DNA of 36,828 nucleotides from a virus. Below are positions 6,194-35,205 of this stretch, piece after piece. The stretch's first letter is position 1; every line of letters starts with the position of its first letter. Both the position numbers and the translations under genes were made by a program. The notes beneath the pieces are model-generated. The model was given only the letters and a program-made list of their open reading frames with translations, did no database searches and was not told where the DNA came from. Where the stretch lies: the IMG/VR virus record IMGVR_UViG_3300028423_000812, positions 1 through 36,828 of that record; one strand, written 5' to 3'.

Positions 6194-8928
6194 TGTATAA
6201 TAACCTTAAAATATTTAGAGGCACTGACTATAATCTAAATGCCACACAAGATTCAAATGGAGTATGGGACGCATCTGTCTATTTAGATGAAGTTTCTACT
6301 GGCCTTTATGAGTCAGTCAATATCTTTATTCTTGAAGAGGTTGTTTCAAATAGTAACACATACCTAAATAAACCCATTTCAGAATCTCAAAATTCAACAC
6401 AATTTGAATTTGAATGGGCAATTAATGCATACGAATCTGAAGATATTTTAATGTATGGCGCCAAGCTTGAGAATGGCATTATTAAAATTAATGAAAAGAA
6501 AACACAGTCAATTGATATACTTGACAACTCAACTTCAATTGGAGTTATTGATGACTTAAATGAAGTTGCTAGTGTTGATAACGAAGCAATTCAGATAAAC
6601 GTTGCACTAAGCTCTCAGGTTGAAGGTAGACATCAGAGAACACTTCTGGTTTACTCTAACGATGGCGTTGATAAAACACTAGTCGCTAGAATACTTATCT
6701 ATGGTGAAGTCGAGGGTGAAGATGAGAGACTACGTATACTATTACAAAACTTTGGTGCAACTCTAGAAGTTGAAGATTTTATCCTATTTAAGGAGCATGA
6801 TATTACAGAAATGGCGCCAGACTATATTTTGTTAAATCAAAAGAGAAGAGAGCTACTTTTAGAACTTTCAAATATTAAGCCGTTTATTGGCACATACAAA
6901 GCAGTTTTAAATGCTATTGATTTCTTTGGCTATAATAATTTAACGCTAAAGGAATATTGGTTGAATATAAACACAGGTAGCAATTCATTCGGTAAATTGC
7001 GTGCAATACCTGTTCCAAACTCAAGTAAATATGGAGAGGCAATACGTAAAAACACTCAAGTTGAGGTACCTTCAAGCAATCTTAAAAAGACAAGTCGATT
7101 TAGCCTAGTTTATAAGATTAATGTACCCAATGGCGAAGTTGACCAATGGGACATACCTAAGGTAGATGAGGTATTTGATTTTACACCTGAAGAAGTTTTA
7201 ATAAAGTTATATGGTTTAAAAAAGAAGCTACATAAAGAATACTTGCCAATGAGCGCAAGGATTGTTGATATTACAGGTGAGGGTGATTTCTTTGCACAAA
7301 AGAATCAAAACATTTGGAACAATCAAAATCCAATTACATTTGTTACTGAAGGGATTGATATTAAATATGAACAATTTCCATTGAATAGAAAACTCTTTAT
7401 TGAGGATATATCTTTGGTACTAAAAAAGGTTTATGATCCAGATGATACAACCGGAACAGGATATGTCGATACTCAAGCAATTTTAAATACAGAATTTAAG
7501 GATTACGATACATTAAGTTCACAGCAACTTAAAGATTTAAGAGAAGCTATAACCACATTTTATCAGACATATCATGATGCACCATTAGATACATTTAATA
7601 GAAGTATTGACAATAGTACGCAAGTTCATGTTGGCTGTCCAATTATTCTTGATGGAGAAAAGACATTTGATACAACATGGGACTCTGCTAAATTTACATG
7701 GTTAGACGCAATTGACCAACAAGTTACATGGGATAGTTGGTGGAAACGTTGGGTATATGAGATTGAATGGATTATTTATGGGCCTAATGGCTGGCAACAT
7801 TCATTTAAAGGGCCAATTGATGACTATTTACAGTTTCCAATTTTCTTACCATATGAAGGTAAATATGATGTTGAAATGAGAACATATGACCTATTTGGAC
7901 ATAGATCATATGATAAAAAATCAGCAATGATTAATGTTAACCTAAAGGAAATTGAGTTATATGGTTTCTATAAGCAAATTGGCAGTAACGGTTGGTCAGA
8001 TAGAGAAGATGTAACATGGAACGAAGGTGGTGGAGTATGGGAATTACCATTTCAAAATGAAACTCCAATCCAAGAAATTCCAGCAAGTTGGTACCTTGGA
8101 CTAGATCGTTCTAATTATGTACATGCTGAACAGGATGGTTTGAACTTCTCAACCGTTTCAAGATACACTGACATTTTTTCTGAAAGTGGTTATAGTGAGA
8201 CTTCAGGTCCTTATACCTGGGACAATTCAGACTTTAGCTGGAATTGGACTAGCGAAATATGGTGGGAAGGTACTAGAATCGGATCAGATATTGCAGCTTC
8301 GTTTCTAATACAGGACATTCAAAATGGTTCTGAACTAACTATTAATCATATTGATCCGGTGACAAACGAATTAGTAAGTGGTTCAATTATAATTCAAGGA
8401 ACAACTCCAACCGGGCCAACCGATGTTTTAAACTGGCAAGGAATTGCAAATGAGCTTAATAATTCAACTGATCCAATTATATCTAAATTTGTGTATAACT
8501 TGGTAGTTAAAGAGTTAAATACGCCACCTGCAGATACAGTGTTGTACATAATGGCGGTTGGTAAAAACTATTCACGATCTTATGATTTTGAATCAATATC
8601 GATTACAAATGGAGAGGTAAATGGAGAGGTTCATCAAAGAACATACAATCCAACGTATGATGATACTGAGATTTATACATCATGGAGAAGTGTTAATAGA
8701 TCAACACATGTGACGTTTTGTGCAGAGTACTCAAAGTTCCCTGGTATGAAATTAAAACAGTGGAAGATTACAAATAATACGAACCCAGATAAAAGTGATA
8801 TATATTATGGTGATATAGTATTAACTTATCTTTTTAAATATCCTGGAGATTACACAATCTCATTGGATGTTGAAGATTCAAATGGAAATACTAAATCTGT
8901 ACATAGAAACATGTTAAAAGTAAACTAA
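6193..8928 (+). CDS. Large baseplate wedge protein, possibly gp7-like, with PKD-like domains
   Basis: 911 residues, against 1032 for T4 gp7. A helical core at about 170-255 (RLRILLQNFGATLEVEDFIL, then RRELLLELSNIKPFIGTYKA and DFFGYNNLTLKEYWLNI) resembles the region of gp7-type proteins that links wedge subunits. Later come two beta-sandwich segments with the PKD-like pattern of G-x-Y-D/T-V/I strands: PYEGKYDVEMRTYDLFGH at about 554-571 and YPGDYTISLDVEDSNGN near the C-terminus. Such Ig-like folds are common on phage surface proteins. The gene order 25-6-small-this gene matches the wedge gene order of T4-like phages. The gp7 equivalence is inferred from order, size and weak similarity; the structural role is more certain. 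Confidence 0.6.
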   Translation: MYNNLKIFRGTDYNLNATQDSNGVWDASVYLDEVSTGLYESVNIFILEEVVSNSNTYLNKPISESQNSTQFEFEWAINAYESEDILMYGAKLENGIIKINEKKTQSIDILDNSTSIGVIDDLNEVASVDNEAIQINVALSSQVEGRHQRTLLVYSNDGVDKTLVARILIYGEVEGEDERLRILLQNFGATLEVEDFILFKEHDITEMAPDYILLNQKRRELLLELSNIKPFIGTYKAVLNAIDFFGYNNLTLKEYWLNINTGSNSFGKLRAIPVPNSSKYGEAIRKNTQVEVPSSNLKKTSRFSLVYKINVPNGEVDQWDIPKVDEVFDFTPEEVLIKLYGLKKKLHKEYLPMSARIVDITGEGDFFAQKNQNIWNNQNPITFVTEGIDIKYEQFPLNRKLFIEDISLVLKKVYDPDDTTGTGYVDTQAILNTEFKDYDTLSSQQLKDLREAITTFYQTYHDAPLDTFNRSIDNSTQVHVGCPIILDGEKTFDTTWDSAKFTWLDAIDQQVTWDSWWKRWVYEIEWIIYGPNGWQHSFKGPIDDYLQFPIFLPYEGKYDVEMRTYDLFGHRSYDKKSAMINVNLKEIELYGFYKQIGSNGWSDREDVTWNEGGGVWELPFQNETPIQEIPASWYLGLDRSNYVHAEQDGLNFSTVSRYTDIFSESGYSETSGPYTWDNSDFSWNWTSEIWWEGTRIGSDIAASFLIQDIQNGSELTINHIDPVTNELVSGSIIIQGTTPTGPTDVLNWQGIANELNNSTDPIISKFVYNLVVKELNTPPADTVLYIMAVGKNYSRSYDFESISITNGEVNGEVHQRTYNPTYDDTEIYTSWRSVNRSTHVTFCAEYSKFPGMKLKQWKITNNTNPDKSDIYYGDIVLTYLFKYPGDYTISLDVEDSNGNTKSVHRNMLKVN

Positions 8929-32274: not shown

Positions 32275-33258
32275 ATGGAGCTCAGTTTAACCGAAAACAA
32301 ACAATTGCTAAGAATTGATGACGCAACGTCTCTTGAACTTGAGCAATTAAATATTTCGCTAACAAAAAGAATTGACTCTTGGAGATTTAATCCATTAGTT
32401 AAAAGAGGAGTGTGGGATGGTTACATTTCATACGTAAAGGATGATAAATGGATCCCAGCGGGTCTTTGGAAAGAGGTTGTCGATATCTGTAAAGAGTATC
32501 GGTTTGAACTTAAAATCAATGGAGTTTCAGAACTTTTTGATAAGGACATAAGCGCGGAGTCATTTGAAAAATGGGCATTGGATTTTTTCGAACAATCTGA
32601 GATTACACCGCGTGACTATCAAATCGATGCAGCCTACAATATATTAAAATTTAGAAAATGTCTATCTGAACTTGCAACATCAGCAGGTAAGACTTTAATT
32701 TCATTTCTAACAGTTGCATACTTACTTGAGAAAAAGAAAGCAGAACGTATTTTATTTATTGTACCAAACGTTTCTCTTGTAATCCAGGCTAGTGAGGATT
32801 TCGCAGACTATAATTATAGAAATCAAGTCAATATTAAAATACAGCAAATTTATTCTGGTCAAAAAATTAGAGCAGGTAGAAATGTTGTTATTGGAACATA
32901 TCAATCACTTGTGAAAAAGAAAGCTGAATATTTTGATCAATTTGATGTTGTGACGGTAGATGAATGTTTACACCCAGATACTTTGATTACAATGTCAGAC
33001 GGTTCTAAAAAAAGAATATGTGAGGTAAAAGAAGGTGATTGGGTTAAAACTACTAATGATAATACATTACAAATAGAAGATCGACAGGTTGATTTTGTTT
33101 ATAAAAATTTATCACAAGGAAATCAAATGTTTGAAATTGAAATGGAAGATGGTTCAATTATTAAAATAACAGGTAATCATAAAGTTAAACTTTCAAATGG
33201 TATTTATAAAAGAGTAGATGAATTAACAGATAATGATGATATATTAAGTTTTAATTAA
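32275..33258 (+). CDS. uvsW: UvsW helicase N-terminal half fused to a split N-intein
   Basis: 327 residues. Residues 1-230 are the first half of an SF2 recombination helicase like T4 UvsW: a small N-terminal domain with WRFNPLVKRGVWDGYI (36-51), RDYQ (113-116), Walker A ATSAGKT (134-140), PNVSLVIQ (164-171), IGTYQSL (206-212) and the first part of motif II, VTVDE (226-230). The helicase then stops and a 97-residue N-intein begins at Cys231, ending at the TAA at 33256-33258. T4 UvsW drives branch migration and unwinds R-loops to switch origin use. Alone this product lacks motifs III-VI and should be inactive. It needs the product of 34270-35205 for trans-splicing, which would restore the DECH motif. 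Confidence 0.88.
   Translation: MELSLTENKQLLRIDDATSLELEQLNISLTKRIDSWRFNPLVKRGVWDGYISYVKDDKWIPAGLWKEVVDICKEYRFELKINGVSELFDKDISAESFEKWALDFFEQSEITPRDYQIDAAYNILKFRKCLSELATSAGKTLISFLTVAYLLEKKKAERILFIVPNVSLVIQASEDFADYNYRNQVNIKIQQIYSGQKIRAGRNVVIGTYQSLVKKKAEYFDQFDVVTVDECLHPDTLITMSDGSKKRICEVKEGDWVKTTNDNTLQIEDRQVDFVYKNLSQGNQMFEIEMEDGSIIKITGNHKVKLSNGIYKRVDELTDNDDILSFN
32965..33255 (+). other. Split N-intein (IntN, 97 residues)
   Basis: Starts with Cys1 directly after the DE of the helicase motif II. Block A is CLHPDTLITMSDGSKK; the following block has VKEGDWVKTTNDN. Block B is ITGNHKV, with the conserved T-x-x-H (T69, H72). The segment FEIEMEDGSIIKITGNH matches the strand before the block B His in other inteins. 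It ends without linker, endonuclease or C-terminal blocks F/G, and these last occur at 34270. Length and layout are close to naturally split inteins of the gp41-1 kind. Confidence 0.9.
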
Positions 33259-33317
33259 AATTGATTAATTTTTATGTGTTTAATAAATATATAAAATAAA
33301 GACTATGTTTATTAAAT

Positions 33318-34280
33318 ATGAAATGTAAAAATAATAATTGCAATAATATATTAAAACCTAAACAAAAAAGATTTTGTAGTCAAACATGTCATTATGATTG
33401 GAAAAGAAATCAACCTAGTAAAAATAAAAATAATAGAGATAAAAAAATAGATGAAATAAGATATATCGAATCTTTAAAAGATAAAGATGAAATCTATAAA
33501 TTTATTTCGGACAATATTTTTAAATTTAATACTATTACCAATTTAAGTGAATCTGAAAAAATTACTAAAATGATAAATGAATATCATTTTAATATAGATA
33601 ATAATGTGGCATCTTGGAAAGATTTATACGATTACCTTAAAGGTCCTATAAAATGTGCAAATATAAAATGTGTGAACGAATCTAAATTTGATACATTCAC
33701 ACATGGATATTATAAATTTTGTTCTGATGAATGTTTACATAAATGGAGGTCATATAATATGGAAGGTGATAAAAATAACTTTCATAAAGTATCTGCAGAT
33801 GTTAGAAAAAGAATAGGCGTTGAAAATGGTAAAAGAATAAAAAAGATGATAACTGAAGGTACATTCACACCTAATATAACAAATTCATGGGCTAGAAGTA
33901 GATGTAATATTAATCTCAATGGAAAGAATATTAAATTAAGATCGTCATGGGATGCATATTTTCAATTATTAAATCCATCATTCAAATATGAAAAATTAAG
34001 AATTCCTTACATGTGGAATAATGATTGGCATAATTATATAGTTGACTTTATAGATGATGTAAATAAATGTATATATGAAATCAAACCAAAGGGTGAACAA
34101 AACAAGGGTTTAATAAAAGCAAAACGAGAGGCAGGAATGCAGTGGGCTATAAATAATGGATATAAATATATTGAAATTACTGAAGATTGGTTTAAAATAA
34201 ATCACAATGAATCAATATTAAAAGGTCAACCTGAAGAAAAAAGATTAAAAAAATTACTTAAACAATTCCATGAAGATTAA
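33318..34280 (+). CDS. Free-standing homing endonuclease, Vsr/EDxHD-like, with two zinc fingers
   Basis: 320 residues, lying between the two intein-helicase halves. Two four-Cys fingers are visible: C3, C8, C20, C24 (RFCSQTCHYDWKR) and C113, C118, C135, C139 (KFCSDECLHKWRS). A basic helix region follows (FHKVSADVRKRIGVENGKRI, about 155-174). The C-terminal nuclease domain has RSSWDAYFQLLNP (208-220), E225 in YEKLRIPY, D243 in YIVDF and E254-x-K256 in YEIKPKG, consistent with the PD-(D/E)xK/Vsr-like fold. Such genes sit inside fractured, split-intein genes and spread the cassette by cutting intein-free alleles. The stop overlaps the C-half start by 11 nt. Hand-counted rows at 33421, 33541 and 33961 hold 15-22% G+C, against 37% at row 35041 in the helicase, which suggests a separate origin. 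The 59-nt gap before it is A/T-rich; a weak promoter is possible. Confidence 0.8.
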   Translation: MKCKNNNCNNILKPKQKRFCSQTCHYDWKRNQPSKNKNNRDKKIDEIRYIESLKDKDEIYKFISDNIFKFNTITNLSESEKITKMINEYHFNIDNNVASWKDLYDYLKGPIKCANIKCVNESKFDTFTHGYYKFCSDECLHKWRSYNMEGDKNNFHKVSADVRKRIGVENGKRIKKMITEGTFTPNITNSWARSRCNINLNGKNIKLRSSWDAYFQLLNPSFKYEKLRIPYMWNNDWHNYIVDFIDDVNKCIYEIKPKGEQNKGLIKAKREAGMQWAINNGYKYIEITEDWFKINHNESILKGQPEEKRLKKLLKQFHED

Positions 34281-34386
34281 AAAAATTAATAAAATAAACT
34301 ACAGTGGTGATGTTTATAATCTCAGAATAAAATCAGAAGATGGCTTAAATCACAACTACTTTGCAAGTGATTTGAATGTATCTAAT
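34270..34386 (+). other. Split C-intein (IntC, 39 residues)
   Basis: Begins MKIKKINKINYSGDVYNLRI (block F-like strand: YSGDVYNL) and ends NHNYFASDLNVSN followed by Cys+1 (block G). The last residue is Asn as expected. The one before it is Ser instead of His, as in the cyanobacterial DnaE C-intein (IASN-C). The extein +1 nucleophile is Cys. The length is typical of native split C-inteins (35-40 residues). Confidence 0.9.
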
Positions 34387-35205
34387 TGCCATAAAGCAAA
34401 ATCACAATCAATTAAGACTATTCTATCAAAATGTAAAAATGCTGAATATAGATATGGTTTATCCGGTACAATACCAAAGGCAGGTACACTTGATCGACTA
34501 ACTCTAATGGCATATACTGGTCCTTTAATTACAGAAGTAAGTGCCAACTTTTTACAGCAACAAGGACATATTGCAAATTGTAGGGTTAAAGTAATTGAAA
34601 TGGACTATGCAACTGAAGGCGCCAAGAACGCGTTTAAGGAAATGGCGTTTAATAAATATGAAAACAAAGACGTCTTTAAATTTGAACAAAATTACATTAT
34701 TAATTCAGAAGGTCGCCTTAACTTTATTTGTAACATTATTTCCAGAGTACGTGGTAATTCCCTTGTACTTTTCCATCGTATTGAACATGGTAAAAAGATA
34801 TTTGAAAAGCTCAGACAGGATAGTGATAAAACGGTATATTACGTAGACGGTGGTACCGATAAAGATATTAGAGAAGAATATAAAAAGAAAATGGAAGATG
34901 GCGAAGAGGTTGTAATTGTCGCCTCATATGGTACGTTTTCAACAGGGATTTCAATTAAAAAGATTCACAATATTTTCTTTACTGAATCATTTAAAAGTGA
35001 GGTTATTATTAGACAGTCAATTGGTCGAGGATTAAGACAACATCACTCAAAGGATACTGTTACTATCATTGATTTTGTTGACGATATTAGCTCACCTGAA
35101 TGGGATAATTATCTAATGAGACATGCAAAGGCACGTCAAAAAATATACAAAGAACAGAAGTTCAAATATGACATTAAAAAAGTTAAGTTTGAAGGAGATA
35201 TATAA
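34270..35205 (+). CDS. uvsW: Split C-intein fused to UvsW helicase C-terminal half
   Basis: 311 residues. Residues 1-39 are the C-intein; Cys40 is the first residue of the helicase part. Residues 40-311 complete the SF2 helicase: CHKAKSQ (end of motif II DECH), motif III SGT (66-68), FHRIEHGKKIF (168-178), ASYGTFSTGI (218-227) and motif VI IIRQSIGRGLR (246-256). The last three match T4 UvsW closely (FKHVSHGKAIF, ASYGVFSTGI, LQTIGRVLR). Joining 230 + 272 residues gives 502, compared with 503 in T4 UvsW. The ATG lies inside the end of the endonuclease gene (ATGAAGATTAA), so translation may be coupled to it. Confidence 0.88.
   Translation: MKIKKINKINYSGDVYNLRIKSEDGLNHNYFASDLNVSNCHKAKSQSIKTILSKCKNAEYRYGLSGTIPKAGTLDRLTLMAYTGPLITEVSANFLQQQGHIANCRVKVIEMDYATEGAKNAFKEMAFNKYENKDVFKFEQNYIINSEGRLNFICNIISRVRGNSLVLFHRIEHGKKIFEKLRQDSDKTVYYVDGGTDKDIREEYKKKMEDGEEVVIVASYGTFSTGISIKKIHNIFFTESFKSEVIIRQSIGRGLRQHHSKDTVTIIDFVDDISSPEWDNYLMRHAKARQKIYKEQKFKYDIKKVKFEGDI

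Follow-up and report, generated by a model that had tools for sequence, protein, structure and literature searches.

A probable mobile split-intein element in the uvsW helicase gene of an uncultured phage

The uvsW locus and its three reading frames

The sequence analyzed here, IMG/VR record IMGVR_UViG_3300028423_000812, is an entire viral contig of 36,828 nt (the window; all coordinates follow it). Its gene for the recombination helicase UvsW very probably harbors a mobile split-intein element, an arrangement known as a "fractured gene". The locus, positions 32275 to 35205, consists of three open reading frames (ORFs) on the + strand, which carries all features described below. ORF 1 (32275 to 33258, 327 amino acids) holds the first half of the helicase and an N-intein, joined at ...VTVDE/CLHPDTL; ORF 2 (33318 to 34280) encodes a nuclease of 320 amino acids; ORF 3 (34270 to 35205, 311 amino acids), overlapping ORF 2 by 11 nt, holds a C-intein and the second half of the helicase, joined at ...NVSN/CHKAKSQ. 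Related loci compared with the window are labeled with L-numbers.

An initial annotation of this DNA had proposed that a split intein interrupts uvsW at its DECH motif, that an endonuclease gene separates the two halves and that the exteins sum to 502 residues. Coordinates, domain profiles and some 40 related UvsW loci that carry an intein agree with this, and the exteins count 230 and 272 residues. The matches to T4 UvsW and to Pfam intein families and the intein-free uvsW genes of related phages, all of which the annotation had pointed to, were found as well. Two of the objections it had named do not hold within the record: a single continuous uvsW frame is ruled out because the three frames of the element contain 33, 80 and 29 stops, and no second intact uvsW is present elsewhere in the 36.8 kb.

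The N-extein (230 amino acids, 32275 to 32964) comprises the UvsW_N domain and motif I (TSAGKT) and runs to the D-E of motif II. The C-extein (272 amino acids and stop, 34387 to 35205) begins with CH, its Cys being the +1 residue, which completes the DECH motif II, and contains the helicase C-terminal domain. Compared with T4 UvsW (PDB 2oca, a chain of 510 residues), the N-half matches residues 24–235 (E = 9e-27) and the C-half residues 232–501 (E = 2.5e-35); the two matches join at the DECH of T4 UvsW, residues 232–235. The UvsW_N profile PF21241 scores 28.9 bits, above its cut-off of 25.3, the ResIII and Helicase_C profiles match at the expected places, and SF2 motifs I to VI span both halves. 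By these matches, the broken gene is identified as UvsW, a phage enzyme of the DNA synthesis, recombination or repair class. The break falls after the Glu of the DExH motif and before the next residue. On both sides of it, the extein frames are open and conserved in dozens of phages, which would be hard to explain otherwise than by their use.

The N-intein (32965 to 33258, 97 amino acids and stop codon) and the C-intein (34270 to 34386, 39 amino acids with its own ATG, ending ...NHNYFASDLNVSN) together display all the splicing blocks: Cys1 (C-L-H-P), block B (TGNH), block F (VYNL...NHNY), the terminal Asn and the +1 Cys. These residues are kept across the relatives in alignments of both halves, and the +1 Cys is found in every intein-bearing uvsW allele examined. 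Pfam Hint (4e-9) and TIGR01445, the intein N-terminal region (5.6e-9), match above their cut-offs; Pfam Intein_splicing, which extends to the C-part, lies just under its own (1.4e-7). A profile of the N-intein also finds the NrdJ-1 intein (E = 2.4e-7). The contiguous intein at the same site in L100 (139 amino acids), 70% and 72% identical to the two halves of the window and folded with these in the alignment, is predicted with confidence to adopt a Hint fold (predicted local distance difference test, pLDDT, 92.5); the model resembles the inteins Ssp DnaB, NrdJ-1, gp41-1 and Npu DnaE. By residues and domain profiles, the two halves thus classify as a class 1 split intein.

The putative homing endonuclease (33318 to 34280) consists of N-terminal Cys clusters resembling zinc fingers and a C-terminal core. 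It matches the endonuclease family phrog_15427 (1.4e-22). Conservation among 36 relatives extends over the C-terminal 150 residues, in which the invariant positions RSSW[DE], YI.DF and E-x-K-P (RSSWD, YIVDF and YEIKP in the window) are read as a PD-(D/E)XK core (D/E...D...E-x-K). The Lys of E-x-K-P is Arg in phages S16 and PM2. At a lenient limit of E = 0.1, 20 of 32 relatives match PF08722, the TnsA-like N-terminal domain (best 2.1e-8), and six match NUMOD3. An AlphaFold model (pLDDT 88) superimposes on TnsA (1t0f) with Z = 9.7, at 2.7 Å over 125 residues. A search of the nuclease profile against PDB sequences returned only I-CreI, at chance level (E 0.1–0.9). Taken together, the profile matches of the relatives, the invariant core and the predicted fold classify the nuclease as TnsA-type PD-(D/E)XK. 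Vsr was dropped as best fold, having a lower Z than TnsA (5.9 vs. 9.7; I-Bth0305I gives 5.7), a comparison made by fold. In place of the Vsr-like endonuclease that the initial annotation named for fractured genes, the window has a TnsA-type core, and the evidence points away from membership in the Vsr/EDxHD group.

A predicted RNA hairpin of 45 nt (about 33275 to 33319) ends at the start codon of the nuclease gene. Its folding energy of −12.4 kcal/mol (z = −2.57) was reached by 2 of 200 shuffled sequences. It was found only in the window and in L009, the spacer that holds it being absent from most relatives. In L009, most of the stem is kept, with one double change from A-U to G-C; two pairs near the loop are broken, and its own z-score is −1.7. 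In T4, the translation starts of I-TevI, I-TevII, I-TevIII and SegB lie under hairpins of this kind, as does that of MobE in phage Aeh1, and these nucleases are thereby restricted to late transcripts (PMC2988022). The hairpin of the window resembles those controlling T4 homing nucleases, weak to moderate evidence suggesting a putative translational control element, which, as in T4, would probably keep translation of the nuclease low when transcripts read through. The motif AATAAATATATAA, considered as a promoter before the nuclease gene, is no more frequent than expected by chance; sigma-70 and terminator scans of the locus stayed at chance level, and no late promoter before the nuclease could be demonstrated by the motif and sigma-70 scans. 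An Rfam search of the window and its relatives yielded no group I intron or other RNA family around the insert.

Empty sites and horizontal spread of the element

Comparison with related loci demonstrates, besides the anatomy, empty sites and horizontal spread of the element. Sister phages in IMG/VR, about 78–81% identical in DNA, have an uninterrupted uvsW; the UvsW of two of them (L013 and L016) is 93% identical in protein and lacks the insert. Upstream, 5.7 kb of their DNA can be aligned with the window, at an identity of about 78%. In blastn comparisons with L013, L014 and L016, the alignment stops at 32953–32964 and resumes at 34390, which places the whole mobile element at 32965 to 34386, 1,422 bp inserted between two codons. 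Its GC content is 24–25% (25% for the N-intein), compared with 34% for the record.

Immediately past the junction, the window has a Cys codon (TGC), whereas 71 of 73 intein-free loci have Thr (ACA or ACT); motif II accordingly reads DETH in these 71 relatives and DECH in the intein alleles. The two exceptions, L034 and L036, are intein-free yet carry DECH, possibly the trace of a past intein loss or else the ancestral state. The exteins of the window are 91–93% identical in amino acids to the empty sister alleles (93% for the N-extein and 91–92% for the C-extein), while the third bases of identical codons agree in only 53–62%. This pattern of high protein identity and low third-base agreement argues for purifying selection on both UvsW halves.

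Transfer is indicated by comparison with L009. In protein, the intein halves of the window and L009 are 89% and 95% identical and the nucleases 74%, vs. 73% and 67% for the exteins; in DNA, the intein halves are 86–88% identical and the exteins 68–70%. Third bases of identical codons agree in 73–76% inside the element and in 53–58% outside. On a tree of the joined exteins, the window falls within a clade of empty alleles (97 in the SH-like approximate likelihood ratio test) and L009 within another empty clade, beside L073 (98); forcing the two together is rejected by the approximately unbiased test (p = 1.4e-6). On the intein tree, on the contrary, they are sisters (94). At least five changes between empty and intein-bearing states are needed on the extein tree. 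By these comparisons, the element has spread horizontally between phages, and the pattern is that of homing with repeated gain. Formally, several independent losses could be considered instead, but these would not account for the closer agreement of the inteins compared with the exteins.

The intein profile gave only six weak, distant matches in bacterial and archaeal genome contigs, which give no hint of copies in hosts. The whole locus found no near copy among phage records by megablast and no match in plasmids.

Proposed mechanism and its alternatives

In the mechanism that best fits these data, the N-half and C-half would be translated separately, after which the intein halves would bind each other and fold into one Hint domain. 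Cys1 would attack, the ester would pass to the +1 Cys and the Asn would cyclize, releasing a UvsW of 502 residues whose DECH box is intact; neither half alone would have a complete ATPase site. During co-infection, the nuclease would cut insert-free uvsW alleles, and repair would copy in the element and the +1 Cys codon with it, thereby converting DETH to DECH. A cut in an invariant catalytic motif would ensure that the target stays present in new hosts and would make imprecise loss lethal or costly. The homing role of the nuclease, cutting of intein-free uvsW, is inferred from the horizontal spread and the empty sites.

Several points weigh against this mechanism. Trans-splicing and nuclease cleavage of uvsW are both inferred from sequence. 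It is possible that helicase function has another source outside the 36.8-kb fragment. The nuclease of the window itself has no Pfam match above chance, neither to PF08722 nor to NUMOD3; its assignment to TnsA therefore rests on its relatives and on the predicted fold. Finally, the penultimate residue of the C-intein is Ser, the usual His being absent. Ser is found at this position in most related UvsW loci, and the fast and efficient Npu DnaE intein, ending ...ASN, has it as well; hence, it is no argument against splicing.

The element could be decayed, the split intein no longer splicing and the phage doing without UvsW or using another helicase. The uvsW gene of phage T4 is not strictly essential, and in one close relative (L008/L009) the C-extein contains a second insertion and a frameshift, which suggests that dead uvsW alleles may exist. 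In the window, on the contrary, intein and helicase retain all their catalytic residues, both half ORFs are open, and purifying selection seems to act on the two halves (92–93% amino acid identity to empty alleles that look functional, third bases 53–62%); decay is therefore unlikely. Equally unlikely is that the phage has co-opted the element as a switch, by which splicing would delay or condition UvsW activity during infection. The hairpin and the 11-nt overlap could link the supply of the C-half to timing, but no conserved condition-sensing feature is evident, the hairpin is limited to the window and L009, and patchy presence among sisters with repeated gain fits a selfish element.

A gene in pieces whose products act as a non-covalent complex, without splicing, has a precedent: NrdA of phage Aeh1 is broken by MobE and its halves work non-covalently (Friedrich et al. 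2007, as cited in PMC10448857 and PMC2988022). For UvsW this is very improbable: the break falls within the catalytic motif, and dozens of loci, including some that have lost the nuclease (L128, L134 and L144), retain full intein halves with their splicing residues, for which there would be no use if splicing did not occur. An assembly chimera or frameshift artefact, conceivable for a metagenomic contig, is refuted by the identical three-part order in independent isolates (S16 and PM2) and many metagenomes and by the exact element ends at a codon boundary.

Related elements and states of the site

Dassa and colleagues reportedly described, in 2009, fractured genes with split inteins and free-standing endonuclease genes in eight enzymes. 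The locus of the window shares with these (Dassa et al. 2009) a phage gene of DNA metabolism in two ORFs, a split intein, a nuclease gene in between and signs of a control element before it; it differs in the host gene, uvsW, in the site, DE/CH, and in the nuclease, TnsA-type vs. Vsr/EDxHD. The fractured-gene kind is thus already known, and sequences with the uvsW site have been public for years, in genomes and in PHROGs. The literature search found no description of a UvsW intein; it did not cover the founding paper, Dassa et al. 2009, so that novelty is not firm. With that paper aside, the uvsW site and the pairing with a TnsA-type nuclease appear undescribed in the literature searched. The view of the initial annotation that the insertion site had not been described stands as regards the papers searched; the site itself, however, is present in Salmonella, Proteus and Prevotella phages and in PHROGs 16259 and 9690.

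A profile of the N-half matched about 80 contig loci. The same type of element occupies the same uvsW site in Salmonella S16-type phages (I133_gp092-090), Proteus phage PM2 (KNT71_gp180-182), Prevotella Lak-B megaphages, which read TAG as Gln, and dozens of uncultured phage contigs. Site, three-part order and a homologous nuclease core are shared with S16, PM2 and Lak-B (PHROGs 16259, 9690 and 15427), and their intein halves are homologous to those of the window (40–56% identity over the N-intein region); the exteins, in comparison, are only about 30% identical. NUMOD3-like repeats replace the zinc fingers of the window in the S16 and PM2 nucleases, which read EIRP instead of EIKP, and the penultimate His is present where the window has Ser. 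The two uvsW halves essentially correspond to PHROGs 16259 and 9690. The public records do not name the intein; in them, the uvsW pieces are annotated simply as "DNA helicase" or "hypothetical protein".

An element of the same type, also with a TnsA-type nuclease, breaks the clamp-loader gene gp44 of the uncultured phage LR756500.1 (L007:2552-5297), at D-E/C (DE/CD) of Walker B; here, the host gene is an AAA+ ATPase. The uvsW of this phage (L003) is intact and free of an intein; among named relatives, its product is nearest to the UvsW of the window. DinG/XPD-like helicases (Helicase_C_2) are broken at DE/C by the same element type in L127, L129, L130, L133, L135, L136 and L138–L140. Other systems share single traits. 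The jumbo Pseudomonas phage MIJ3 also has a nuclease gene between split-intein halves, but in PolB and of the HNH type (PMC6892783). The inteins of mycobacteriophage TerL1 likewise lie in an ATPase Walker B motif (site e; PMC5050341), but are contiguous, in a terminase and in actinobacterial phages. NrdJ-1, gp41-1 and Npu DnaE (PDB 8ubs, 6qaz and 4kl5) share the Hint fold, at 20–25% identity and in different host genes.

The uvsW site exists in several states: empty; with a contiguous mini-intein of 139 amino acids (L097 and L100; also L160); split with a nuclease gene, as in most; split with a nuclease remnant (L113); split without nuclease, with about 47 nt between the halves (L128, L134 and L144); and split with 1.5–4.3 kb of other genes (L011, L012, L040 and L093). 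The contiguous forms (L097/L100:4380-6299 and L160:4302-6176) have a Met at precisely the position at which the C-half begins in split genes, a hint that they may have arisen from a split ancestor by renewed fusion. In the loci with other genes (L011:5959-10193, L040, L012 and L093:5421-9693), tail-fibre-like and further ORFs of no recognised function lie between the intein halves, with no nuclease. Among them is an ORF of 693 amino acids that weakly resembles tail-fibre families (phrog_7809, E = 2e-11). It is 84–85% identical among L011, L040 and L093; the UvsW exteins of these three lie further apart. The gene set of L012 looks like an internal deletion of that of L011.

With somewhat more doubt than confidence, DE/C of phage helicases may be regarded as a split-intein locus of long standing, at which the intein persists longer than its nuclease. 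Once invaded, the gap between the halves would turn into a slot able to lose the nuclease, to close again into a contiguous mini-intein or to acquire unrelated cargo such as tail-fibre-like genes. If so, structural genes ride inside a broken gene of essential type and could spread with it, and protein trans-splicing creates a permanent, neutral insertion site in a core gene.

With the element of the window, the few phage genes interrupted by split inteins gain a clearly bounded, recently mobile case, located at the catalytic motif of an ATPase. Its relatives may merit closer study than the window does. Since the site is available empty, with a contiguous intein, split, without nuclease and with cargo, the order of steps in intein splitting can be tested on one gene. 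The N/C pairs (97 + 39 amino acids, ending NVSN/C) are new candidate tools for protein ligation, and the partnership of a TnsA-type nuclease with split inteins suggests that transposase-type nucleases were recruited for homing.

The second uvsW insertion in L009 (7655-8870; also in L008) lies within the C-extein after KKKMEA. It contains an ORF for an HNH endonuclease (7840-8796; phrog_12434, 2e-20), and a frameshift (TGAC) precedes the resumption of the gene; no intron family was found in it. The uvsW of L009 may be broken, or rescued somehow. More distant inteins occur at KxDG/C of ligase-like genes (L148–L156, L162, L164 and L167), with another or no recognised nuclease between the halves. 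In the window, the neighbours of uvsW are gp32-like and primase-like genes. Few of its ORFs, between 223 and 35239, are preceded by a Shine-Dalgarno-like sequence; this scarcity, together with the Tenacibaculum and Prevotella phages among the relatives, suggests a host in the Bacteroidota.

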